Below, in pieces: positions 2,126-61,695 of a stretch of 64,000 bases of DNA. Numbering within the stretch: position 1 is the stretch's first letter; each line of letters starts with the position of its first letter. The notes beneath the pieces were generated by a model. That model was not told where the DNA came from and did not search any database. It was given only the letters and a program-made list of their open reading frames with translations. The stretch is from Nereocystis luetkeana (lineage: Eukaryota; Sar; Phaeophyceae; Laminariales; Laminariaceae), in assembly GCA_031213475.1 (NCBI GenBank), contig JARUPZ010000021.1:5184438-5248437 (forward strand). Reading direction: 5' to 3'. Position numbers and translations under genes: made by a program.

Positions 2126-2427
2126 ACACACACGACTTGAAAAAAAATGAGGTCACATACACGAGAGGCTAAAGGGCCCCATTTTTGAAACCTGGAAAAA
2201 TGGGGAAACACCCAAAACGGGTACACCGGGTCCGTTTTCTCTCAAGAGCAGGTTTACCCCACGATCAGTGCGATTGGTCAGGAACAAATCGCGTACCCGT
2301 CTTTTCGAGGGGAAACGACCCGGGTATGTACTACACGTGAACGGCTGTCATGCTTGGCTTTCCAACCTTTTGTTAGTTCCACTGTAGCCTGTAGTGTGTA
2401 TTAATAGTGTGTGTTGTGTACCTGGTA

Positions 2428-2532
2428 TTACGGGGGACCATAGTTAATAGGACCTATGGTATACATAAAAACCTAAATATTTAACCATTTTTACTAACAA
2501 TATTTGGTCCTATTAACTATGCCCCCCCGTAA
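2428..2532. mobile_element. TA-flanked MITE (Tc1/mariner-like), copy 1
   Basis: A 105-bp near-perfect foldback with termini TTACGGGGGACCATAGTTAA and its complement, flanked by TA on both sides. The left TA is also the right TA of a TACCTGGTA palindrome at 2419-2427, so the element inserted into that motif. Confidence 0.9.
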
Positions 2533-2534
2533 TA

Positions 2535-3870: not shown

Positions 3871-3984
3871 TGTGAGGACAACAACAACAATATCGTATAC
3901 CTGGTACCTGGTATACTGCTATTGATAGCGTCGGAGCTTGCCATTCGAGAAATTGGCTGACGAGATGAACAGAACTATACAACA

Positions 3985-4218: not shown

Positions 4219-4567
4219 TTTTTTTTTTTTTTTTTTTTTTTTCCATCCCATTCATTATCTTCGCACATCTTCTCTCTCTCCTTCCAACTCGTAACTCAGA
4301 TCCGGGGTCACATAGCAGGCTCTTCTCCCCCCTTCCCGCTACGGTACGTGCCTTCATTTTTTATCGCGAGAAGATTTCAGCCTTTTCTTCCCTCGTCGAC
4401 TCGCATCGAATTGTGCCTACCCACGCTGCAAGGCGCTCTCAACAATTGAATCCCTTTTTTTTATTTTTGCAAATAAAGTCAAAGTCCGACCCTCCTATAA
4501 TAGGGCTCGAACCCAGGACTCAAACAAGTAGAATTCGAGGTTAACCACTTGAACCACCGGGGCGACC
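4219..4567 (-). mobile_element. tRNA-derived SINE, copy 1
   Basis: Read on the minus strand, it begins GGTCGCCCCGGTGGTTC. It contains a pol III A box (TGGTTCAAGTGG) and B box (GGTTCGAGCCC), a ~250-bp unrelated body, and a 3' A tract (plus-strand T run 4219-4242). It matches 47923-48257 along its length. The head lacks a pairing acceptor stem, so it is not a functional tRNA. TATAATA here replaces TG in the other copy. Confidence 0.85.
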
Positions 4568-4604: not shown

Positions 4605-4925
4605 TGTGTGTGTGTTCTTCACATTAAACCGTTCTTTCTACCCGTCGACATCCAGCACAACCAGTGTCCGTGCCGATTCTCCAATCCTATTAATAGAAGA
4701 GATACAAGTTCTGTGGTCACGAAGCTACGCCACAGAGATACTACGTTGCCACGTACCTGGTATGCAGTAAGCGCAGCAGTGGGCAATGCAATGCGATGCC
4801 ATTATACTACAGTAGTAAATACGACAGGAACGACATACACATTCTATGAAATAGACGAAAGGAAACAATCAAAAACAAAACAAAAACAAAGAAGACAAAT
4901 CGAAAGAGATGAAGAAAAAAATGAA
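4605..4925 (+). repeat. Dispersed ~310-bp repeat, copy 2
   Basis: Inverted relative of 1815-2125. Against that copy it carries three clean micro-insertions, each at one dinucleotide: TATTAATA at 4688-4695, TACCTGGTA at 4754-4762 and TACAGTAGTA near 4808. Confidence 0.8.
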
Positions 4926-5410: not shown

Positions 5411-5413
5411 CTA

Positions 5414-5526
5414 TCACGGGGGACCATAGTTAATGGGACCAATTTTTTTTAGGAGAAATGGTTAAATATATACCTGGTAGTTTTTTTATGTACACCACAG
5501 GTCCTATTAACTATGCCCCCCCGTAA
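5414..5526. mobile_element. TA-flanked MITE, copy 2
   Basis: Termini TCACGGGGGACC / CCCCCCGTAA with TA on both sides. Internally ATATATAG-T7 of sister copies reads ATATACCTGGTAG-T7, an exact 7-bp insertion converting TA to TACCTGGTA at 5471-5479. Confidence 0.9.
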
Positions 5527-5644
5527 TAGATCTTATTGATAGTGTGGAACACTCGCCCCTCCATCCTTGTCTCCTGACATCTGTCTTTGCTCAGTAAAAG
5601 ATGAAGGGTTGATCATTGATACTGTATTTTGAGGCAGCCGAATT

Positions 5645-6003: not shown

Positions 6004-6215
6004 TAGTGAATATTCCTATTAATAAGGTAGCTATTCGGGCACTCCGGTTGGCTAAAGGTGTATTTATATGCGGCGCCATCAACCTCGAGTATTTCCGAGT
6101 CATAGCATCCCGAGCCGGCCGTATTGATGGAGTATTTCCAAGCACAGCATCCAAGCCGGCCGAGTCAAGCTGCAGTATTGCCGAAGCACAGCATCCAAGC
6201 CCTGACCTCTGGCTT
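6003..6215 (+). repeat. Dispersed repeat pair, copy 1
   Basis: Related to 36488-36640 (shared GGGCACTC..TTGGCTAA and CACAGCATCCAAGC). TATTAATA at 6017-6024 is absent from the other copy, which has TG there. Confidence 0.7.
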
Positions 6216-7701: not shown

Positions 7702-8717
7702 GTGGGGCGCAGCTTATTTAATGGGTCCGCTCGGGTCGGGTCGAGTACTATTACGGGGGACCGTAGCAAATAGGACCAAGTATTGTTAATAAAAATAGAT
7801 GAATATATAGTTTTTTTGTGTGTACCGTAGGTCCTATATACTATGGTTCACGCCGAGTGGCGATGGCCTGATCCGACCCGCGAGAGTTTGGAAACCTCCC
7901 AACTCGACTCGGCCCGACGAGGCCGGCCTTGACCCGTGAAGTTTCGAAAACGTGCCAACCCGACCCGCGGGTCGGGTCATGGCCGGTGGAGAGCCCTGGA
8001 TTTAATTTTCTAATGAACCCCTTTTAGGAGCTTTAGAAGGAAGGTTGACAATTTGTCGATAAAAAAAAAAGAAGTGACGATTGTTATCGGAACTAAGTAG
8101 CATCGACGAACTGTTGCTTTTCTTGATTTCTGTGGCCGAGAAATGTTTTCTCACGCAATTGCAGTCATTCCCTCAGCCGCGGTGACGGTCCCGCCCACCC
8201 TATACGCTGAAACAGTCCCGCCTCCCGCCCATTAAACTCCCCCCCCCCCCCGCTCCTAAAACGAAAACAGTCCCGCTCCCTGTCCATTGACTCCCACCCC
8301 CCTCCCGTCTCGGAAGGGATGCGTGGTCAATGGTCTAATGACTAAGGAAAGCAACGAATGAGTACGCCCCCCCCCCCCCCTCCTTGCTCCTGACCAATGA
8401 CCTCCCCCCCCGCCCCCGCGCCCGCGCCCGCGTCCGTGATCCGTCAAGGGTCAAATGACCTAAGCAGGCAACAAATGAGTGCGCACCCGTGCCCCTTGAC
8501 CCGCCCCCTCCCCTCCCCTCCCCTCACCTCTCCTCTCATATCCCCTGATCCCCCCCCACCCTCCCTCGACCCTCTCATGTGTGCAGCATGGTGGAGGCGT
8601 ACCGCAGCCGGCGCCGCCAGACCCGGACGGCCACGGCTCCGGAGGGGGCGTCGCTGCAAGGCCTAGTCCCTTGGACGCCGCCCGGGTACCTTCGTCATCG
8701 GTGTTGTCGTCAGCGTC

Positions 8718-8757
<40 letters not shown>

Positions 8758-8945
8758 ACTGCTGCGACTGCGGCGATGGCGGAGGCCTCCAGCGGGCCGG
8801 CGGCTGCTACCGCTGCCCCTCGGGGGGGCGGTGGGGGTGGTGGGGTGCCGTACGCGGGTACGAGGGCGGAGCTTGACGCCGCTACGCTGGAGGCACGGCA
8901 GGCCCGCCAAGCGAAGGCTGCCGGTGGTGGTGGTGCTGCTGCAGC

Positions 8946-8985
<40 letters not shown>

Positions 8986-11900
8986 CAACAGCGCCCTGGC
9001 CTAGCTTTCGAAGGCGACGGTGTTGGTGTTGGTGGCGGCGGCGGCGGCAGCTTGGCAGAGAGGCGAGGGGACAGACAAGACTTCGCGAGCTTGTCGGCCC
9101 TTGTGAGGGTGGGGCAAGCCCCCCCCGCCGCCGCTCTTGGGTCGAAGAAGCTAAGACACGCGATCGAGAGCGCGATGAACGTTAGCGCTGCCACAGTCGC
9201 GGCCAAGTTCGCTCTGGCGATAGCCATGTCGCGCCGCATGAACACAGCGGCGACGGCGGCGGAAGCCGCTTCGGCGGCGGCGGCGGCGGCGGCGGCGCAG
9301 AGTGGTGTCGACCGAGGATTTCCAAGGGCGGTGCATAGACCTGAGCGGCGGCAGCTGTCGCACTCGGAGCCGCCACGTGTGGAATTGGAGGCGCGACAGA
9401 GTCGGCGCGATGGGGAGGTGGTGATTGCGGTGGCCGCGGCGGCGGCAGCAGCGATGAAAGCGGCGGCTGCAGCGGCGGAGGCGGAGGCGGTGGCGGAGGC
9501 GGAGCGGGGGGAGGCGATGCCGTTAACCGCGATGGAGCAAGAAGAAGAAGAAAAAGACGAGGAAGAAGAAGAAGAAGGAGAAGAAGAAGAAGCGCCTTTT
9601 GACGCGAAAGCTCCCTTAGCGTCGTCCTTCGAAGCTAGTCAGGGCATCGGACGGGGAACGGGAGGCGGGGGAGGAGGGGGCGGGGGGTTGGGGACGCGGT
9701 CGTCGATCCCGTCGCTTTCGATGATGCAACGGAGAGACTCTGCCCCTGCGGTGTGTGACGTGGGTCTTGGCGGCGGGGTTGGGGGTGGTGGTGGTGGTCG
9801 GGGGGGGGGTGGGGGAGAGAGAGGTGTTTTTCCGTCCTCGACCCCTTCGTCGTTGTCGGGGCCCTCGTTACCTTCCGCGGACGTGCCCGACGGTGGGTCC
9901 TCCGGGGAGGCTGGCGGGTTGCAGTGCGGCCCCGCCGCGGTTAGGAGAAGAGGAGACCAGCAGTGCGTGGTGAGTCAGAGAGGGGGGAGGGGGGGGGGAG
10001 AGGATGTACTCGATAACCTGCATGACCGTAGTAGGTGGGGGGGGGGGGGGGGGGGGGTGCTCATGTCAGCAAAGCCGTAGTCGTATGACCATAGAACCTT
10101 GCATCCCTTCAATGCCGGGACGGAGCACGCCGGGTTTTCACCGACCAGGCAGACAGTGGAGGGGGGGGGGGGGGGGGATTTGTTGCTTGGCTTGGTCGTT
10201 TGACCATTGACCGCGCATCCCTTTCGAGACGGAAGACGGGAGGGGGGGGCGTGAGAGAAGGTGGGAGGCGTGGTGGTGGTGGTGGTGGTGGTGGTTGGAA
10301 GAAATGTGGGACAGTGGTGGGGTGGATAGATGGGGGAAGAAAGATGAAACGTGTTCTGTATCAGATAGAGGACGGGAAGAGCAGGGGATGGGAGGGGCTG
10401 GGGGGGGGGTGTTGTGTGACACATTTTGTGGCGGGTGGGAGGGCGATGATATTATCTTCGTGATTCGTGGGGTTCGGCGAGGAGGGGGGAAGCATGTTGA
10501 CCCGCTTGAGACTTTTTAGAACGGAAAAAGCCGCACGATATAGATAGGGGGTTGGTCTATTCAATTGGTGTCGAGGCGTTCTACGATAGAGGTTCGACCA
10601 AATATTTTCTGAGGCTCCTTCCTCACTTGAGGAGCTCCATACTTAGACACCCGAAAACTGCCTTCAGCGAAAATCACACTACATCTCGATGAATAATCCC
10701 ACGACCCAAGTATACAAAAACGTCATCTTTCGAAACTAGATTGGCATGCCAAATTTTTTGGGTTCAGGGACCCCGTCGTTCAGAGAGCATTTCGACTAGT
10801 ACGGGGGACCGTAGTTAATAGGACCAAAATATTGAGTAGTAGAAATTGTTAAATTTATAGTTTTTTTCATGTATACCACAGGTCCCGTTAACCATGGTCC
10901 CCCGTAATAGCGGAAATGTTGCTATTTCTTATCGTAGAACGCGTCTGGTCCCGAGAGGTACAATGGTTGAACGCAAGGGGTCGCACACGGCACGGGCGCA
11001 ACGACAACCACTGTACAGTGTCCAACCCCGGTTACATCTCTGGGCGCCAAAAAGGGGGGGGGGGGGGGGGGGGGTTCAAGGTGTCTTGGTGACACCACTA
11101 TTTCGGGGGGGGCATAGTAAATAAATAGGACATACGGTACACCCAAAAATCTACTGGTACATATTTCCCTATTTTTTATGAAATATTTGGTCCTATTTAC
11201 TATGGTCCCCCGTAAGTAGGGGGGGGGGGGGTACTCGATATGAGATATGTACTCGATCTCATGCATGGCCGTAGTCGTATATGACCATATAGACCCACGC
11301 ATCCCTACAATGCCGAGACGGAGCATGTCGGGTTTTCACCGACCAGGCAGACATATGCTTGCACCAAGCGCGAAGCGCCGTGAGGTGGAGGGCGAGTCGC
11401 ATGAAGGGTGAGCTACATCCCACTAAGAACCGCTTGTGAGGCGGGCGTGCACATGGAGGACAGCTTTAATAGGTTTATTTAATTTCCGGTATAGCCACTT
11501 CCAGAGACAGCAAATGGGCCAAGCGATGGTGTTCTTGTGCATATGTGTTTGTGTGTGTGGTCTACAGTGGTATCCGCGAGCGCGCGTGTGCGTATGTGTT
11601 TCGTGAATCGGCTGCGCCTGACAGGTCTTTTCGTTGCTTTCGCATCACGCATCGACAGTATCCGACCCCGATTATATCTCTGGAGTGACGAGGAGGAGGG
11701 GTTAAAAAAGGTGTCCTGGTGCCACCACCGTGGGGGGGGGGGGGGGTGAGGGCGAGGGCGGGGTGTTAGTGTTCTTCGTAGGTGTCTGTGTGTGCTCTAC
11801 AGTAGTATCCGCGAGCGTGCGCGCGTGTGTGTGTCTTGTGGGTCGGCTGCGCCCGACGCGTCTTCGTTTGCTTTCACACACCGGGCAGATCACCGATTCC

Positions 11901-13737: not shown

Positions 13738-13880
13738 TCTATAGTGCCGGCTGCCCGCTATAGTGCCTGTGGAATCGCTTGGAACAGATGGGATTAGCTA
13801 TTAATAGTGTGGTAGTGTGGTAGTGTGCGGAGTATATAGTGCCGGTTGCGGCTATTTTATGGTACCGGCATCGCTGTCCG
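13738..13880 (+). repeat. Dispersed repeat pair, copy 1
   Basis: Aligns with 42420-42550 (GCCCGCTATAGTGCCT, ACAGATGGGATTA, GTGTGCGGAGTATATA). TATTAATA at 13799-13806 stands where the other copy has two bases. Confidence 0.75.
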
Positions 13881-19009: not shown

Positions 19010-31491
<12,482 letters not shown>

Positions 31492-31769: not shown

Positions 31770-32710
31770 CCGAGAAAGTCCTCAGGCGGTCGGGGGCAGT
31801 GGTTGGGTATTCTCAACTGTCACGCATTTTTGAACCATTTCGCCGAATCAGGGCGCCAGGTATAATTACAGCCCTCAGAGCCTGGTGCTGCCAACTCCTA
31901 TTGCGCTTTCGCTTGTTACCGTGAGGGATGGACACAAACCAAGACTGCCACGAAGCAAGAATGGCATCGCACAACAGCCGCGGCAGCGGAGTCGGTAGCA
32001 GTGGTGGTGGCCGCAGAGGCGGCGGTAGCGGCGGTATGTAGACGGGCGGTAGGGGCATCCCCATCGGCATCAGCAGCAGCAGCAGCAGCAGCAGCAGCCT
32101 CAGCAGCAGCAGCAGCATCAGCAGCAGCACCACCAGAAGCACCAACATCAGGATCAGCATCGGCAGCAGCAAAAGTGATACCAGCATCAGCATCAGCAGC
32201 ATCGGCAGTAGCAGCAACGGCAGCAGCAGCGGCGGGCGGCGGCCGAATGCCTTTGGGCACTCGTGAGCGAAAAATCATACCAGGTACCGCCTAACACCAC
32301 AGCCCAGCTTGCTACCTGCTGCAGACCTCCGGAATGCCGCACGTATACTATTTACACCCTGCCTATTGTCTATTGCTGGCCTCCATATGGGGTGCTCTCG
32401 ATTCAGTCGCAACGACCGTTACATACTCAACATATGATACGATGCTGGTATGCTGATGCCGAGAGCGACATGGAACTGTAACCGGCCGCCTGCGGTCTGT
32501 ACTCGTATTATTAATAATAGTGTTTAACATGACGAGACAGGTACGGGAGTACCGCTGTACGAGACGAAAATACAGGTGAACATAAGTTGTGCAGTACCGC
32601 TGCAAGCCCTTCGGCGCACTCGTCAAGAGAGTAGAAGGGAGGAAGGAACACAACCGGCCGGACATCCAACGCGAGCACGACCTACGACATTGCGGTACTC
32701 CATCTTTATG

Positions 32711-33000: not shown

Positions 33001-34556
33001 ACCGCACTGCTGATGGATGAACGGCGCGGCCTGAGGACTGCATGCCAAAGTCAACAGCAGCGCAGCGCTGAGGTGGTGGGCTTTCCCCGTTGCAACCATT
33101 TCTTTTCGCGAGTTGGTGGGATTTGACGACGCCGAATCCAAGCGTACGTCAAACTCAACGATTCCCTGTTTCCCAGGCCGCTGGCTTGGAGTCTCAGCGA
33201 TGCAACTCGGACACCAGAATGAGAGAAGGCCAATGGAGATGTAGTACCACGAAAGCTCTGTAATTCTGCCGCGTGTGGCATTCGAAGGAGTTCCATGTAT
33301 CCCTGAGGCGTGTACATGAATCTCGGAGGTGGATGGTGGTGATTCTCTGCCACAGCTTGTGGCAGCCGCGGCAGGAAAGCATCTAGCTCTAATACCATGG
33401 TGAGTCTCCTCTGAAGGTGGTGGCCACCGGGGATGAGCCCAGTATCTGCTTGTGCAGAAATCGGTGGTTGCTCGTCCTCGTTGATATTCGACGATCGCGA
33501 CGCATCCCCCCCACTGAAAAAGTATTGGTTGCTTGCGAGGGACAGGGAGGTACCACGACGATTCCGCTTGATCGTCGCTTAGGGTATGCTAACGGGACAC
33601 CATCCGCTGCTAGTTGCCCAGCCGCAAGCGCTCGCTTAGGAAGATGGAAAGATGCATGGCTGTGTACTTTGCAATTCGTCCCATCTTCCCTTACTCTCAC
33701 TGAATCCACCTTCACAGAACGAAGGCCATTTTTGCTGGGGTTTGGTACAAGTGTCCCACTACGCCGTCCGTGCTGCAGCAGTACCAGATACCTGGTACAG
33801 GATTGTGGCGTGCGTGAGAGCTGAGAGTTGCCCACTTGACCCAAAGAGCACAACGAGAAACGAAAACATTGCACGAAAACGCAGCAACTTGTGGATGCCG
33901 CCGGACGCGGTTGAGATAACACGCCAGGCGCGCTCCTCTCCTGGAGTGGCAGTGTCGTGACAGGAGTACGTTGTCCTGCACTATTTCCAAGTAGTTTGTC
34001 CCCAGAAACCTCGGTGCGATTTTTGAGATGTTGCTACTATGTGATTCAAGGATTGCCTGATGAGCCCGTGTCGACCGTAGACCTTGTCACCGGGCCTGTG
34101 GCACGGGGCAAGCAGAGGCTGCTTTGGGTGGCGAGCAAGGTGATGCAATTGAAGAGGATGGAAACCAGTACCAGAGGTCCCCCGTTGCTTGTGTTTTGCT
34201 GCTGTTGTTTGTGTTGTTGTAGCTTTTACCCCTCATCAACTTGCCACTCGCGTTCAAACGCAGGCGCCACACGTACCTGGTACGTACGAATACCATACGC
34301 CCCAGTATTAATATTAATATTAATAGTAGGAACGGCAGTATGGGCGCGTCAACGAGATTCACCGCCGTACGTGGGTAGTAAGAGCAAAAGCCTTGCAGGG
34401 TACAATAAACTCCTTTTATGAGACCATCCTTGAATAGCCTCGCGCGTAGGCTATCCTGCACGATCTAGTGCGCGTGGCGCTCTCCGCTGAGCACGACTTA
34501 TCTATCCGAGTTTCTCATCGATCCCCAAGAAGCAAGCCTTATCTTCTCGATGCTTG
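33001..34556. other. No gene recognised
   Basis: Several open frames on both strands (for example 33389-33922 minus), none with recognisable domains. A fragment AAGTAGTTTGTCCCC of the TTAA MITE lies at 33988-34005. Tandem TATTAATATTAATATTAATA at 34306-34325. Confidence 0.4.
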
Positions 34557-36487: not shown

Positions 36488-36640
36488 TTAATGGTGAATA
36501 TTTCTGAGGTAGCTATGCGGGCACTCTGATTGGCTAAGGGGTATATGCGGCTCAATCAGCGCAGATCCTTTCCAAGCCACAGCACCACAGCATCTCGATC
36601 AGCCTAGAGTCTTTCCAGGCACAGCATCCAAGCATTGATC
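36488..36640 (+). repeat. Dispersed repeat pair, copy 2
   Basis: Related to 6003-6215; lacks the TATTAATA present there. Confidence 0.68.
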
Positions 36641-40503: not shown

Positions 40504-42623
40504 GTGTGTTCAGATAGGTCGGGGAGGCTATATCGGAATCGGGGGTTGGATGCGATACCGACAGACGAACGATGTCGTCGGTACAAGTTCGATAGTTGAT
40601 ACCTGGTACATGGAAGCTTGCGTTCGGTGTCTTTGATACCAGGTAACATGAAAGCTTTTTGTTCAGGGTCTTTGATGCATCGGAGCTTTCGTTCGGTGTC
40701 TTTGATACATCGAAGCTTTCGTTCGGTGCCTTTGACACATGCAAGCTTTCGGCCAGCGTCGGCATTAAAAGTGAAAACCACGGGAATGTCGGGGGGGGGG
40801 GGGGGGGGGATGGAGGGGCGGGGAAAACACGCTCGGTACGATGTATCGAAACTTTGATATCTCGTTACGTCGATCTGTCTGATATCCATCACTATTAATA
40901 GTGTATGGTACCTTTGATTGTTTGTGGTGAGCGAAAAGACGATACACTGGTGTACACTCACGGCGTGCGGTGGAGATAGCCCCAACCCGGGGAAGTCATC
41001 GTCTCCGGCCGGGTAGTGTGGGATTTCCGCGAATTACCCACTCCATTGTCGTTTCACCGGCGCTGCAAAGGCGATATGTACGTGACCGGGGGACGACCGC
41101 AAACACTCTCCATCTTTTGCTTGTATTGTCGACACTAGTGTCCGAACAACAGACACGGGTACTGGTACTGGTACTGGTATGCGCTCGTAAGCAAGCCTGC
41201 GCCACCTGCAGCAGGGTAAGCACGCAGTAGCCCAACACTTGTTGGCATGTGTTCGGCTGTCGGCCGGCCCCCTGCAGGGTAAGCATGTACGCGGAAGGCC
41301 GAACACATCTTGAGACGTGTTTGGCCGGTGGCCTCATGCAGGGTAAGTAGCCGACCATATCCTGGAATGTGCTTTGACGTGGTGGCCACGTGCGGGGTAA
41401 GTTCGCGGAATCCGACCAGAGGTTGGGATGAGGTTGTGGCTGATGGATCAATAAGATGCCGGCCGTCGTATCATGAATGCCCACGTTCCTCTTGGCCTCG
41501 TTACTGGTCGCACGCGATGTGTTGTTGTCGATACACCCTCCCTCGTGGAAGCGTTTTTCCGATGTGAAGGTTTTGGTGTCTTTTGGTGATGTTACCTCGT
41601 TTTCTCCTGAAGGCGAGGTGGGCGAGCATGTCAAAATGTGATTGCTTTCGTTGGTGCTTTTTGTTCGTATTCTTTTACTATTATTACGGGGGACCATAGT
41701 TAATAGGACCAACAAGTGTCAGTAAAAATGGTTAAATATGTAGGTTTTTATGTAAACCATGGGTCCTATTAACTATGGTCCCCCGTAATAGTCTGCAGTA
41801 GTATCGGCGGTATCTTGGTGTGGTTCCTGGCATATATACCGGCTACCAGTATGTTTTTTTTTTTTTTTTTTTTTTTGTGCAGAATATCTTTTGGTGTTTT
41901 ATCTTTCGTAGGAACCGCTGCTTTTTTGTATTATTTTTGCGAGGATGGCGGCCATTTTTGTTTTTGTTCGTTTTTTCAGCGAGGTATTCCTGCAACAAGC
42001 TGCTTTATTGCTTCTTTCACGTTAATAACAGGCTCCTCTTCCCTTTGTTGGCGTTTTTTTTTTTCTTGACGCAATTGCCTTTTTTTCACGTTTCCACTTG
42101 TTTGGTTGACGTATCTTTCTTTTCCTTACGTTTCCGTTGTTTTTCCTTGACGCACGATTTCTAGTTCCTTAATGTTTCGTTTATTTACGCGTTTCCTTCT
42201 TTTCCCTTCTCTTTTCCTCACGTTTCCTGTCTGTATTGTTCGTTTCTTTGAACATGCTTTTGGCAGGCCCTCGTCGACGGACCCGACACCGGCGTATCCC
42301 GGCAGTTGATCCCCTTCAAGCGCTTGTCTCTGACCGACTTCACGCTTCCCATCCAGCGCAACGCCCGCGCCGGCACCATCTCCGCTGCGTCGAAGGTAAG
42401 GAGAGAGAAAACAGCTGTGTTCCCTCTATTATGCCGGTTGCCCGCTATAGTGCCTATGGAATTGCTCGGTACAGATGGGATTAACCCGTGTGGTAGTGTG
42501 CGGAGTATATAATGCCGGTTGCGGCTATATATAGTGCCCGTATAACATAAGTATGGTATTAACGTTTCGCTCTTCCTGTCACGCTCTCACGGCTCATTAC
42601 ACGTAATGCAGTAACGCCCATGT

Positions 42624-46479: not shown

Positions 46480-47920
46480 CAGATATTAAGTTTCCGGGTG
46501 GGAATTGCACATACACTGCGGTAACCTGCATGCCCCATTTGATATGTTTCCTATACGAAAGTTGGATACATGGGTACTATTCAGATCCTGGACACCATCT
46601 TACACCGTCAGGTAGGGATCCAGGTGATCTAGATGATCTATCTGTAGATGATCTATCTGCCCGACGTGCAGATAATTTTTCAGAGGCCGCCGTGGAAGCT
46701 ATACATACGTAATGATGAGGTGGGGAATGAAGCTGGGCCGGCAGGGCATACATACTGTGTTCCACACACAGCTTATACTCGTACTCACCGTCGATAGACA
46801 CCTCTGATGGCAGCTTCATGTTTGTTTTAGGTTTCTGCAGCCTGTCCTCGCAATACAAATGCCAATAAGGGCGTGAACTTGGCGTCGAGGCTCAATTTCC
46901 TCCGTTGCCACCATGAGCCAGTGCTTACCACTTATTCGATACTGTACTTGGTCTGATTGGCTCAGGGCCAGAGTTAGGGTTGCTCTGATTGCGTCAGGGA
47001 CAGAATAGGGCTAGGACTGAGCGGCAAATAACGCTCTGCTACTCGTCGGCAAGTACCAACCTGTCAGGTATTGCGATCTTTTTCTTTGCGGATGACATTT
47101 GCTTGTGTTCTTTGTGTGCGGGATATGATATGGATGATGCCGGAAACACACGAGAAATACTAAATACTGTACATGTAGCACCTACCGTATACCTGGTAGC
47201 ACTTAAGATACAACACCCCCCCGTACGGTTTTCAAAGCTGGGCTTCTCGACAACGGGGAGGGCTTATACGCCGAGCGATGCGTCTATGCAACCTTTTAAG
47301 TAGTAGACGAAATCTTTCCCAAGCCACCATTACCATTTTCGTTGTGTATGCTCCCCATGTTACCGAGGGAACCGGGTCTGAAATTCGTCCCAGGGGATAT
47401 GTTATTTTGCGTTATATACGGTACGTACTAACTGTATGTAATCCCTGTAGACGAATGGCGACACCATTAGACACACGCATTACTGCTGCAACACCCTCTC
47501 GGCGTGCAGCGAGAAACGTGGAAGAGGAAGCACGGGCATACAACGGTTCGTATATAGGGGGACACAACGCGGAGAAATAAGTACCCGGTCAACCGACAAA
47601 GGACGGCCCGACCGGCCGACCGGTGAATCGCTGACCAATCGTTTTGAACAGTGAATACCGACCAAATGATCCCGCCGCGTTTTTTTCGTGTTCTAGGTTC
47701 CAGGGTTCTGGCGTGAGCCCGGCTCGCCTTCGCAATAATACCGCGGCTTCTAGGTAGTCTAAAGAAAACCCGAACCATCCCAATGCGTCAAGGCCTACAT
47801 CTGGGCACCGAACACGCGCGGCGAACGAGGCGCCCCTTCGAACCCGGCAGGTAACGGATTGGTGTAATCACGGGCACTATTAATAGTAGAAAGAGGTCTC
47901 ATGTCTCATCTTTAGTCTAT
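46480..47920. other. No gene recognised
   Basis: Unassigned; the short ORFs lack family features. TATTAATA at 47878-47885, just before the SINE. Confidence 0.4.
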
Positions 47921-47922
47921 AC

Positions 47923-48257
47923 GGTCGCCCCGGTGGTTCAAGTGGTTAATCGAATTCTACTTGTATGAGTCCTGGGTTCGAGCCCCAGGTGGGTCGGACT
48001 TTGACTTTATTTGCAAAAATAAAAAAAAAGATTTCAATTGTTGAGAGCGCCTTGCAGCGTGGGTAGGCACAATTCGATGCGAGTCGACGAGGAGGGAAGA
48101 AAAGGCTGAAACATTCTCGCGATAAAAAGGAAGGCACTTACCGTAGCGGGAAGGGGGGAGAAGAGCCTGCTATGTGACCCGGATCTGAGTTACGAGTTGG
48201 AAGGAGAGAAAGAAGATGTGCGAAGAGAATGAATGGGATGAGCAAAAAAAAAAAAAA
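47923..48257 (+). mobile_element. tRNA-derived SINE, copy 2
   Basis: A box TGGTTCAAGTGG at 47934-47945, B box GGTTCGAGCCC at 47975-47985, body shared with 4219-4567, poly(A) tail 48244-48257. No clear target duplication. Confidence 0.87.
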
Positions 48258-48259
48258 CT

Positions 48260-50405
48260 TGACGCGGAACAAACGCTCGTCGTCCCTCTTATCATGGTTG
48301 CTGGGTTTCCAAGGAGCCAAAAGAAGCAGCTAGGGCTGAGTGAGCATTCTACAGAGGGGCGAGAGCCCTCTTTATGGCTCAACAGCGAATTTGCCTGGGA
48401 GATTTACAACGGTAGCGCCCGGACGAGAGGCATGGCGAGACTAAAAAACCGGCGGCCTATATCTCTACCCTGTCTACGACTACGAGTAGTCCTGGAGAGC
48501 ATGGGGACGAAAAAAATAGTAATACGAGTACTGCCGTCGCGAGGCAAACGATCGTTGCCTGAAATAAATGCCAAAAACACAGCTGCTGCTTGCTTGCTCT
48601 GCGAGGAACATCCGATCGTTGGTGTACAGTAGTAAAGTTGTCTGACACTGGGAAGAGCGGGGTATGAACCTCACCCCTGCCTGAGCCACACGTCGATAGA
48701 CAGTACCAGGAAATATTCATGGCGAGACGCAATAATAGCGGCAGCAACGACCCCTTGTACTACAATACAAGCAATACTTGTTTTACTGTAGGTACAGGTG
48801 TTGAAACCCTAGTACTGCACAGTGGTGAAACATGCATGTAACTCTACATTAATTCCAAGTAATTAGTCTCCAAAACAGAACTGTGGTTGTAAAGGGGGTG
48901 GATCTATCTTTCAAGTATTCGCGAGTACGTACATGGCAGTGGAAGCTTCGTCACGATAAATGTTACGGCTACTGCTCCTGATGCTGCTCCTGCTGCTGCT
49001 CCTCCTGCTGCTGCTCCTGCTGAATGAAGCGAGAGAAACACCCAGCACATACTGTAGGACTCGGAACACTCGACCACAACTTTCTCTGCAGAGCCACGGC
49101 GAAATACAAATCATGCCCAGCCCCAACAGCAGCAGAAAGGGTTGACCGAAATACACGCTGTGTTGATTCCCTTGCGCTACTCGTACTTGTTCAAGTAGTG
49201 GCAGCAGAAGACTCGCTTCGTATGTATGGTAGATGTCGTAGCCGCAGGAGTAAAAAACAAGGGGATAGAAAATTCGAAGCACAGACAAAACTGCAACATC
49301 AAATCAACCCTGCTCTATTCCCAAGTGGTTTAGACCCCCAACGTTTAGGTGCGCTTGTGAGCAGGCCTCTAGACCACACTCTTTCGTCTGAACCCACGCC
49401 GCGACGGTACCACGCCGAGACGCAACGACAGGAAGCGCCGACCGAGAGGTACAGGCCTTGATTGATCCCCTCGCACTATTAATATATCAATCTTTCGAAC
49501 CGCACGTATGTAGCAGTAGTAGAAGCCTCGCCAGATGTGACGAGACGTCTGCAGCAGGGAGACGTTCGGCCGGATTCGAAGCACCGTCGACTTTTTCCAG
49601 TAACAACCAACACAAAAAACGAAATAAGCCCACTCTACGACTTCCAAGTACCTGGTAGTGTTTTGTCCCCATGAAGTAATGACAGGTGCGGCTGCTACTA
49701 CGAGGGAACATATGCTAGTAGTCAGAACCAAACATGAATATTATGGTGTGCAAACATAGGAGCGTACCTGGTTCTCGGGTCCATCATGGGTTCTGACTAT
49801 TATCGCCCCCCGTATCAAAGACCTACCCATCCCTCCACCCCCCGATTTGTAGTATTTACTACTCTGACCGGAAGTGTAAGAAGCGTTTTAACATCAATGT
49901 GAAGACGAAACACTCCTCACATTTCGGTCCAGAGGGGTACTTCGTCAAGCGATATATGGATCAGAGCCTACTATTATTGAGAACCGGGTACTGGGCATGC
50001 CTTACTCTCGCTAGGAACAAACTCGCGCCCTGGTGGGTACCTTGTAACTGTCGCCAACTATGCGCTCTGCTCCGGCTGGTGTGGAATGTATGGACAGAAC
50101 AAAATCAATGGGAGATGTTCGCTGATCAGGTGGTGCCGCCGGACTGTCCGGGTTTTTTCTTTTTCGAAAGTTATCGTCGTACGCCTGTCCTTATTTCACT
50201 CTGGAACTCTAAGGGATACCCTTTACTATCAGCAGTTTCAGGCACTCCCCCTTTTTCAGCGCTACTACTTCTGCACGTATCGGAAAACTAAGGAAACGTT
50301 AGCTGCGAACCGACCTGGTAAGTCCTGCTCACTTTTTGCTGTAAACATCGAACTTGAAGACACAGGAAAGGTGTGTACGATATGTGTCTTCCCCCCTCCA
50401 AGCGC
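48260..50405. other. No gene recognised
   Basis: Contains half a TTAA-type MITE (48853-48898), CTG/CTC repeats (48975-49020) and a dispersed repeat (49705-49800, partner of 25700-25812). A shifted open stretch at 49900-50370 (NCRQLCALL, YYFCTYRKTKE) matches no family I recognise. Confidence 0.4.
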
Positions 50406-51293: not shown

Positions 51294-51431
51294 GCGGCGG
51301 TGAGGGCGGCGGCTTGTCGAACAGATAGGAGGACGGTTGGCAATAACGGTCGCTATGAGGAGCAAGGCAGAACACGTGAGAGTCAAGCTACGGGTATAGA
51401 GGTAGAGGCGGGATGCATGCTACGATAGATA

Positions 51432-51536
51432 TTACGGGGGGCCATAGTTAACAGGACCAAATATTGTTAGTAAAAATGGGTTAACATATAGGTTTTTATG
51501 TATACCATAGGTCCTGTTAACTATGTTCCCCCGTAA
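51432..51536. mobile_element. TA-flanked MITE, copy 12
   Basis: TTACGGGGGGCCATAGTTAA ... CTATGTTCCCCCGTAA, TA at the left; the right flank ATA is shifted by one base. Confidence 0.9.
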
Positions 51537-51638
51537 ATAGATGGGTTTCTGACCGCTTTTCGCTCTTGAGGAGCTCTATGATACTCCGCCCAAACGAGCC
51601 TGACTAAGACAAACATGAACGTTCAGCCCGATGAATAT

Positions 51639-60634: not shown

Positions 60635-61695
60635 CCGCCCACGAAGGGAGCACAACATAAACCAAACTCTAAGGCTCTTACGGGTCGCAACCATGTAACC
60701 CATGTGGAGTAAAGGTAGGCAAGATGATCGCATAATAAAAATTGACGTGAGCCGGGTGAAACCCACGCTAAGTCCTGGGCCAACACCGGTCTCTTGTCTC
60801 AACATAATAACGGAATCCCGCGGCAGCGCGGTGACTTCATGGAACAGAGGCTTCTTGCGGAACAGCCGAGCGGCCGTAGCCACCTACCTCACGAGCTTTG
60901 CAGATTCTCACGGGGTAGTCGGCGGTCGCAAGCAACGTAGCACATACAACATGTTTCCCTGGTCAAGTCCATCCTCGGCCTGTACATATATATGCATGCT
61001 TATTACTGCTGCCATACTAATACGGCCTGGCCGTGTCTGCACTGACGAACTATAATACTACATAACTTTTAATAATGCCTGGCGCACCACTACTACGTAC
61101 GAGTATTGGTCTACATCAACCTTTTAGTGTTTGCTCTATTCATCCAACGTTTGTTTGTCGAATGTTCCCGTGAAGTACTACTCCATAATTTGCCTGCGAC
61201 TGGCGGGTGTACGGCCATTGCGCTAAACGAGGCACGACGTTGGGTGTTCAACAGTATCATAGATCTCGCCATTTTATTCCTCCGGTGTAGAAGGCCTGAC
61301 GAACCACGATTTGGTTGCACATACGCTAAATGCCTGACACACCACGAATGGTTTTATCGACCTTTTAGCGTTTTCAACCGTTTCGGATTTCTCCTAAAAT
61401 CGCACTATTTGTCCGACAGTAGTGGGATATCTTCTGAAATAGCGTTATTTATCCGACTTTAGTCGGATTTATTATACGTTCTGACCTTGAAGGCTTGGAC
61501 TATCGATTCGTTGTACGTTCAACCTATATGGATTTCTTCTGAAATATATATACCAGCTATACGTTTTGTCCTTGACGGGCTAACGCACGACATTTGGTTG
61601 TGTACTATAAATATTAATAATATACTCCACCCTGTAGGGCGTCTGACGTGTAAATACGCCTATTAATAGCTTTCTTTGCAGGTGTATTAATAGCG
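60635..61695. other. No gene recognised
   Basis: Unassigned. TATTAATA at 61612-61619, 61661-61668 and 61685-61692, three copies within 81 bp. ATTTATCCGACTTTAGTCGG-type repeats at 61395-61470. Confidence 0.4.

Follow-up and report, generated by a model that had tools for sequence, protein, structure and literature searches.

A palindromic word scattered through the genome of Nereocystis luetkeana is a probable excision footprint of a TA-duplicating MITE

Introduction

Why does a dispersed repeat of Nereocystis luetkeana carry the palindrome TATTAATA at a point where a related copy carries the dinucleotide TA? The question is raised by positions 4688..4695 of the window, the 64-kb stretch of DNA that was analysed (C21:5184438-5248437). 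An earlier note had interpreted this word, and similar differences in three other repeat pairs, as footprints left behind by the excision of a MITE present in the same window. Such footprints of TA-type MITEs are already known, and footprints in general are mostly examined one locus at a time. In the present case, the scars are 6-bp insertions scattered over the genome, which seems to be a countable archive of excisions. One assembly could thus yield the history of transposition, the choice of target, and the end joining of the host.

We searched the assembly of 465,085,209 bases in 1,987 contigs, and a 264-kb sample that consists of the window and one 10-kb stretch per megabase from the first 10 Mb of contig C1 and of contig C2. 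All the states compared below are those of paralogues within one assembly, in which an inherited scar is not always separable from a new excision.

Results

The MITE is 105 bp long, begins with TTACGGGG, ends with CCCCGTAA, and has TA on either side. Including both TA dinucleotides, it measures 109 bp in 21 of the 39 copies from the 264-kb sample and the first loci, and its 12-base inverted ends are exact in several copies. The exact end TATTACGGGG occurs 60,645 times in the genome, compared to 864 occurrences of the reversed control. By hand count, the first 100 of these ends listed, all of them on C1, form 29 facing pairs separated by 75-107 bp and 42 single ends. This corresponds to about 0.71 MITE copies per exact end and, provided that the remaining genome has similar proportions, to about 43,000 copies. 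None of the viral contigs searched for the MITE end carries one.

Within the window, sequence comparison places the 105-bp element with TA on both sides at positions 2426..2534, and further copies with the TA duplication at 21248..21356, 21449..21557, 41682..41790, and 51430..51538. Two diverged copies are located at 5412..5528, with empty sites of the form ...CTA-G... in L009 and L019, and at 10797..10909, with MITE-less related sequence in L004 and L021. Because paralogues without the element carry a single TA at the site (L020 compared to L015, and window position 5412 compared to L009 and L019), the target duplication of the MITE is TA. The duplication is also evident in a SINE family, the filled site of which reads TCC-TA-[105 bp]-TA-GGG and the empty site TCCTAGGG. 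The element is short, has terminal inverted repeats, and is present in a high copy number, as is characteristic of MITEs. Assignment to the Mariner/Stowaway type of rice was rejected, since those elements have the end consensus CTCCCTC, as given for rice Mariner in Table 1 of PMC4423477, and the ends here are TTACGGGG. The piggyBac type, which duplicates TTAA and leaves no footprint, disagrees with an empty site of TA and a remaining scar of 6 bp.

The word TATTAATA is far more frequent than expected. For about one word expected in 64 kb, the earlier note had estimated about 15; the count is 16, compared to a mean of 0.47 and a maximum of 3 in shuffled sequences. The enrichment, which the note had proposed to check genome-wide, holds for the whole 465-Mb assembly: TATTAATA occurs 93,112 times and the reversed word ATAATTAT, which has an identical composition, 10,689 times, making it about nine times rarer. 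The excess amounts to about 82,000 sites, with copied scars counted in. The 264-kb sample contains 45 copies of TATTAATA, whereas 1.3 are expected from a second-order Markov model. Equal abundance of other AT-only 8-bp palindromes, named in the note as a possible objection, was not observed: these words occur 1-14 times each in the sample, with the exception of the TA microsatellite words, which occur 60 and 66 times. Only poly-C and three CAG-repeat words rank above TATTAATA in over-representation in the sample.

The repeat family of site 4688 provides the first series of states at one TA. The pair described in the note differs by a clean 6-bp insertion: the copy at 4688..4695 contains TATTAATA, and its window partner at 1820-2124 on the minus strand is empty and reads TA. 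The first look for family members returned 2,980 candidates, of which 40 matches were scored, and 20 of these, taken for spread of match length, were aligned. The site ATCC-TA-GAAG is occupied by TATTAATA in 13 of the 20 copies, by TA in four, and by TATAATA, TATTTAATA, and TGTTATTAATA in one copy each. The query bears the scar, so that copies chosen from the 40 best matches lean towards it, and the proportion of 13 in 20 overstates its share; many of the 13 scar copies may also share one inherited scar. The left flank of the site joined to a MITE end was matched 20 times, and not at all in the control. A script recognized the whole MITE between complete flanks in 13 of these 20 filled-junction copies, eleven in one orientation and two in the other. 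A fourteenth filled copy (L102) was identified by eye, and in the other six the right side is decayed, changed, or missing. The presence of both orientations means that the MITE inserted at this TA at least twice. A second site of the family, CATAC-TA-GATACG, contains TATTAATA in two of the 20 copies (L040 and L041); the first site of L041 is empty.

The second series of states is found in the SINE family. The SINE copy at 4219-4567 carries the variant TATAATA at 4496..4502 on the plus strand, whereas the copy at 47923-48257 reads TG, a difference of 5 bp. The contrast drawn in the note is thus present, but TG is probably a mutated TA, because members of the family ordinarily have TA here. A pattern of the SINE flanks with at most 30 bases between them has 1,108 matches, and among the 100 listed, 99 read TA and one reads TATA. 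Another pattern, which catches both the scar and the MITE at the SINE site, identified 25 places, 19 of which read TATTAAT, five TATTACG, and one TATTACT. The TATTAAT group comprises 13 SINE copies with TATTAATA, including L080, whose right flank has one changed base, one copy matching on the left side only (L081), and five non-SINE places. Among the TATTACG places, two are SINE copies that hold the whole 105-bp MITE and a second TA, in opposite orientations (L069 and L070), and three are non-SINE, as is the single TATTACT place. In L081 (C27:8333188-8333650), the SINE left flank and TATTAATA are followed by unrelated sequence, which possibly reflects a rearrangement or an excision in which the right flank was lost.

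The SINE scars occur on the common background and on backgrounds, distinguished by alignment columns, that are also seen in empty or filled copies. The background of A205T with a long T run is common to the filled copy L069, 227A>T is common to the empty copy L085, and 47C>A to three empty copies. The backgrounds favour more than one excision, with recurrent mutation and gene conversion as other possible sources, and several independent excisions from the SINE site are likely. A SINE subfamily with one inherited scar was considered, since the first seven empty copies had a run of eight T and most scar copies a run of seven. This linkage was an artefact of selection, as five further empty copies have seven T. 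The ratio of scars to filled copies at the SINE site, 13:2, is above what the genome-wide counts suggest, and was counted against the footprint model.

One TA is thus seen empty, filled, and scarred at two of the four sites of the note, those of the 4688 and SINE families. At these filled and empty sites the scar reads TA-TT-AA-TA, that is, a few terminal bases between two TA, as in footprints of Tc1/mariner elements. We infer that the states probably arose in the order TA, filled, scar. The other two pairs of the note are less clear. The alignment of TATTAATA at 6017..6024 with TG in the paralogue 36488-36640 is plausible, but the pair is diverged. At 13799..13806, TATTAATA corresponds to CC in the paralogue 42423-42528 (from 42420 in the note), but the window copy has an additional 8-bp tandem unit, GTGTGGTA, next to it, so that the aligned gap is 14 bp and the pair is weak evidence by itself.

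Further copies of TATTAATA in the window are located at 2399..2406, 19 bp to the left of a MITE copy, at 22661..22668, 25834..25841, 40893..40900 (in the context CAC..GTG), 47878..47885, 49477..49484, 61612..61619, 61661..61668, and 61685..61692. In the 288 kb searched, paralogue matches were found for 16 of the 45 sample sites, and the matches span the site in eight of the 45. The partner has TA at three of the spanned sites (4688, and sites in L018 and L027 with differences beside them) and TATA at one (L014), and four are unclear. Since TATTAA accounts for one of the 22 six-base indels in the all-against-all list of the sample, the evidence from paralogues comes mainly from the 4688 and SINE families. 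In a repeat unit at L027:4371 (TGTTATAAGGATTACCTTGGGCTGGG...), one copy contains TATTAATA and four listed partners in L027 and L023 do not. The window also includes a long low-complexity open frame with runs of Q, A, G, and E (8581-10080), which is probably not a normal gene. A Pfam scan of ten window ORFs returned nothing at E 0.01, and ARAGORN detected no tRNA in the window.

The flanks of the scar resemble those of the MITE. At bases -3 to -1, the frequencies of T, A, and C are.57,.53, and.55 for 53 MITE ends and.50,.53, and.56 for 94 TATTAATA flanks, compared to.28,.28, and.19 for all TA. The preferred target of the MITE is therefore TAC-TA, and TATTAATA exhibits the same preference. After the removal of microsatellites and MITE ends, and with each site counted once, the mean flank score of 42 TATTAATA sites is 1.95, whereas that of 984 other TA-N4-TA sites is -1.61, and none of 20,000 random draws reaches the observed sum. 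Among the eight best words in the ranking of TA-N4-TA flanks, the prominent ones are TTAA and the microsatellite words of TAG/TAC. For TTAA, z is 10.6 if the palindrome is counted on both strands, and about 7.5, lower by the square root of two, per single site. The agreement of flanks, which is predicted by the footprint model, is an independent test of it, because the preference was derived from MITE ends and was not used to define the scar.

We conclude that TATTAATA is very probably, with a probability of about 0.92, the excision footprint of the 105-bp TA-duplicating MITE. The most serious alternative is that the majority of TATTAATA words go back to few excisions and multiplied when a small number of scar-bearing repeats, such as the SINE and the 4688 repeat, were amplified. 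The scar in 13 of 20 copies of the 4688 family, chosen as they were by likeness to a scar-bearing query, and the 2,980 first-look candidates are consistent with such copying. Nevertheless, only 16 of the 45 sample sites have a paralogue match in 288 kb, no listed spanning partner has TATTAATA, and the SINE site exhibits about 13 scars, on several backgrounds, against 1,108 matches. We therefore consider amplification an unlikely source of most of the words.

Deletion of the near-palindromic MITE during replication, by hairpin slippage and with no transposase involved, could be envisaged since inverted repeats, of which the element largely consists, are unstable, as is also stated in PMC1925063. 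However, slippage from one TA copy to the other would regenerate one TA only, the uniform two-base remnants suggest a fixed cut, and the other end products examined are scarce or show little enrichment, which makes this origin very improbable. Least credible of all is a regulatory or structural motif, or an effect of AT-rich composition, unrelated to the MITE. A perfect palindrome composed of A and T only might be expected of such a motif, but the roughly ninefold rarity of the reversed word and the far lower counts of other AT palindromes in the sample, TA microsatellite words apart, argue against it. Moreover, the word TATTAATA acts like 6 bp inserted at TA and has the flank preference of the MITE, and the filled, empty, and scar states of one TA contradict a motif at two sites.

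Based on the excision-footprint interpretation, a mechanism can be proposed. The MITE inserts at TA, preferably within TAC-TA, and duplicates the TA. A Tc1/mariner-like transposase would then cut two to three bases inside each MITE end. After a cut at two bases, the TT 3' overhangs would be filled in from both sides, leaving TATT and AATA, which would join into TATTAATA. After a cut at three bases, the TTA overhangs would anneal by their self-complementary TA, and the filling of one base would give TATTAATA as well. The note's claim that two bases remain per side thus predicts the observed TA-TT-AA-TA, but the annealing of three-base overhangs by TA:TA yields the same product. We lean slightly towards annealing because one product dominates. 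The host would join the ends with little loss, so that one sequence prevails. Each scar has three TA dinucleotides open to new insertion, and some scars were copied together with an amplified host repeat, so that excisions are fewer than scars.

Other conceivable end products were examined. TATTATAATA, the blunt product of a three-base stagger on both sides, has no genome-wide excess (2,133 compared to 2,705) and was rejected, although the second site of the 4688 family has it in one copy (L035). For TATTAAATA, the sample shows slight enrichment (5 compared to 0.9), and its flanks are not MITE-like. TATATA, TATTATA, and TATAATA were rejected as general footprints, since their excess in the sample is about two- to threefold and their mean flank score is not MITE-like. 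TATAATA, which the note had derived from three bases left on one side, does occur at both family sites (the window SINE, L049, and L039), but its excess, 59 compared to 21 in the sample with both orientations counted, is modest.

Several words are nested. Positions 32506..32519 read TAT-TATTAATA-ATA, as would result if a scar went through another cycle at its central TA, and three overlapping TATTAATA words at 34306..34325 fit repeated cycles at an outer TA or a short tandem expansion. A MITE copy in L104 has TATTAATA inside itself, and in L023 a MITE end lies directly on a scar. The nested words fit the re-use of TA dinucleotides within scars; the cases are few, and that at 34306-34325 is explicable by short tandem growth.

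The autonomous relative with MITE ends that the note had suggested looking for was not found. A DDE_3 profile search of the genome gave no matches, with 30 candidates scored, and a DDE_1 search gave 28 matches. None of the ten DDE_1 loci examined with about 1.4-2.2 kb on each side (L109-L118) has TTACGGGG ends of its own, although ends lying farther away would have escaped notice; at L110, an ordinary MITE copy adjoins the DDE_1 match. Because these searches identified no autonomous partner, the Tc1/mariner label that the note had applied to the transposase is given only by the TA duplication and the inverted ends. One DDE_1 match belongs to a pogo-like element, L115:409-2386 (within C7:10116700-10120800), the 516-residue ORF of which has a long acidic tail. 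The ends of this element read TA-CAGTACCGGCCCGCTAGTAAGAAAC, with TA on both sides. It was rejected as the parent of TATTAATA, since its CAGTACCGG ends would fit insertions of the TACAGTA type instead. Such an insertion is present in L039, and related ones are present in L033 and in a window copy; the L115 element would fit them.

A second TA-bounded word, TACCWGGTA, is commoner than TATTAATA, with 182,395 occurrences in the genome compared to 1,744 of the reversed control, and 87 compared to 2.4 in the 264-kb sample. In the sample, 87 of 94 cases have A or T as the central base, and the flank preference of the word, determined from 184 flanks, is unlike that of the MITE. With 6 of 33, it constitutes the commonest class of seven-base indels in the sample. 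Within the 4688 family it takes the form of a 7-bp insertion, some copies having A and others T. Examples in the window are located at 4754-4762 and 3898-3913, and the word sometimes forms tandem pairs spaced 7 bp. TACCWGGTA looks like the scar of another TA element, but the 264-kb sample showed no resident parent. The search for a parent among inverted pairs with such ends returned only pairs of the word itself at varied spacing, the strongest other words starting with TACC have at most 12 copies in the sample, and no parent was noticed among the large insertions listed.

Scar words could reveal elements that have since been lost, and TACCWGGTA is a candidate. We give even odds to the broader proposal that TATTAATA and TACCWGGTA are TA-bounded scars from at least two independent transposon systems, together amounting to about one scar per 1.7 kb and resulting from stereotyped repair. 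The TACCWGGTA element would have been excised about 100,000 times, or its scars copied, before it all but vanished, and scars would chain through the added TA. If this is true, few words of the sample other than microsatellites are more over-represented than the scars. At CACA-TA-GC, where TA is the state of most other copies, the SINE copy in L053 has TACGTA, and the sample shows an enrichment of about 36-fold for TACGTACGTA; TACGTA/TACGTACGTA is perhaps a third small TA-bounded insertion.

Discussion

What appears to be new is the scale and uniformity of the scars, as a result of which a footprint ranks among the most over-represented words of a genome. In the sections of the open-licence literature consulted, we found no account of a footprint word in excess across a whole genome. 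Footprints of Sleeping Beauty and Tc1 have the form TAC(A/T)GTA and result from a short 3' stagger. They share with the scar described here the arrangement of TA, terminal bases, and TA, but the MITE ends here start with TTA, and four bases separate the two TA in the most frequent product.

Stowaway MITEs of grasses, which belong to Tc1/mariner, are likewise short inverted-repeat elements with a TA duplication, and the sections of PMC1925063 that deal with them describe footprints of a few terminal bases between two TA, with several states per site. The grass footprints vary at one site, whereas one product dominates here. In the brown alga Ectocarpus, Mariner-Tc1 elements are similarly abundant and mostly non-autonomous, with almost 12,000 copies; the words 'footprint' and 'excision' are absent from the main text of PMC12477816.

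Excisions of DNA transposons in rice were likewise read as cut-and-paste events from filled and empty states (PMC4423477). In that study, only eight of 94 excisions, across all superfamilies, left just the two target copies, and the rest were accompanied by flanking deletions, filler, or both. Whereas deletions and filler prevail in rice, the Nereocystis genome contains one short scar word at up to about 10^5 places.
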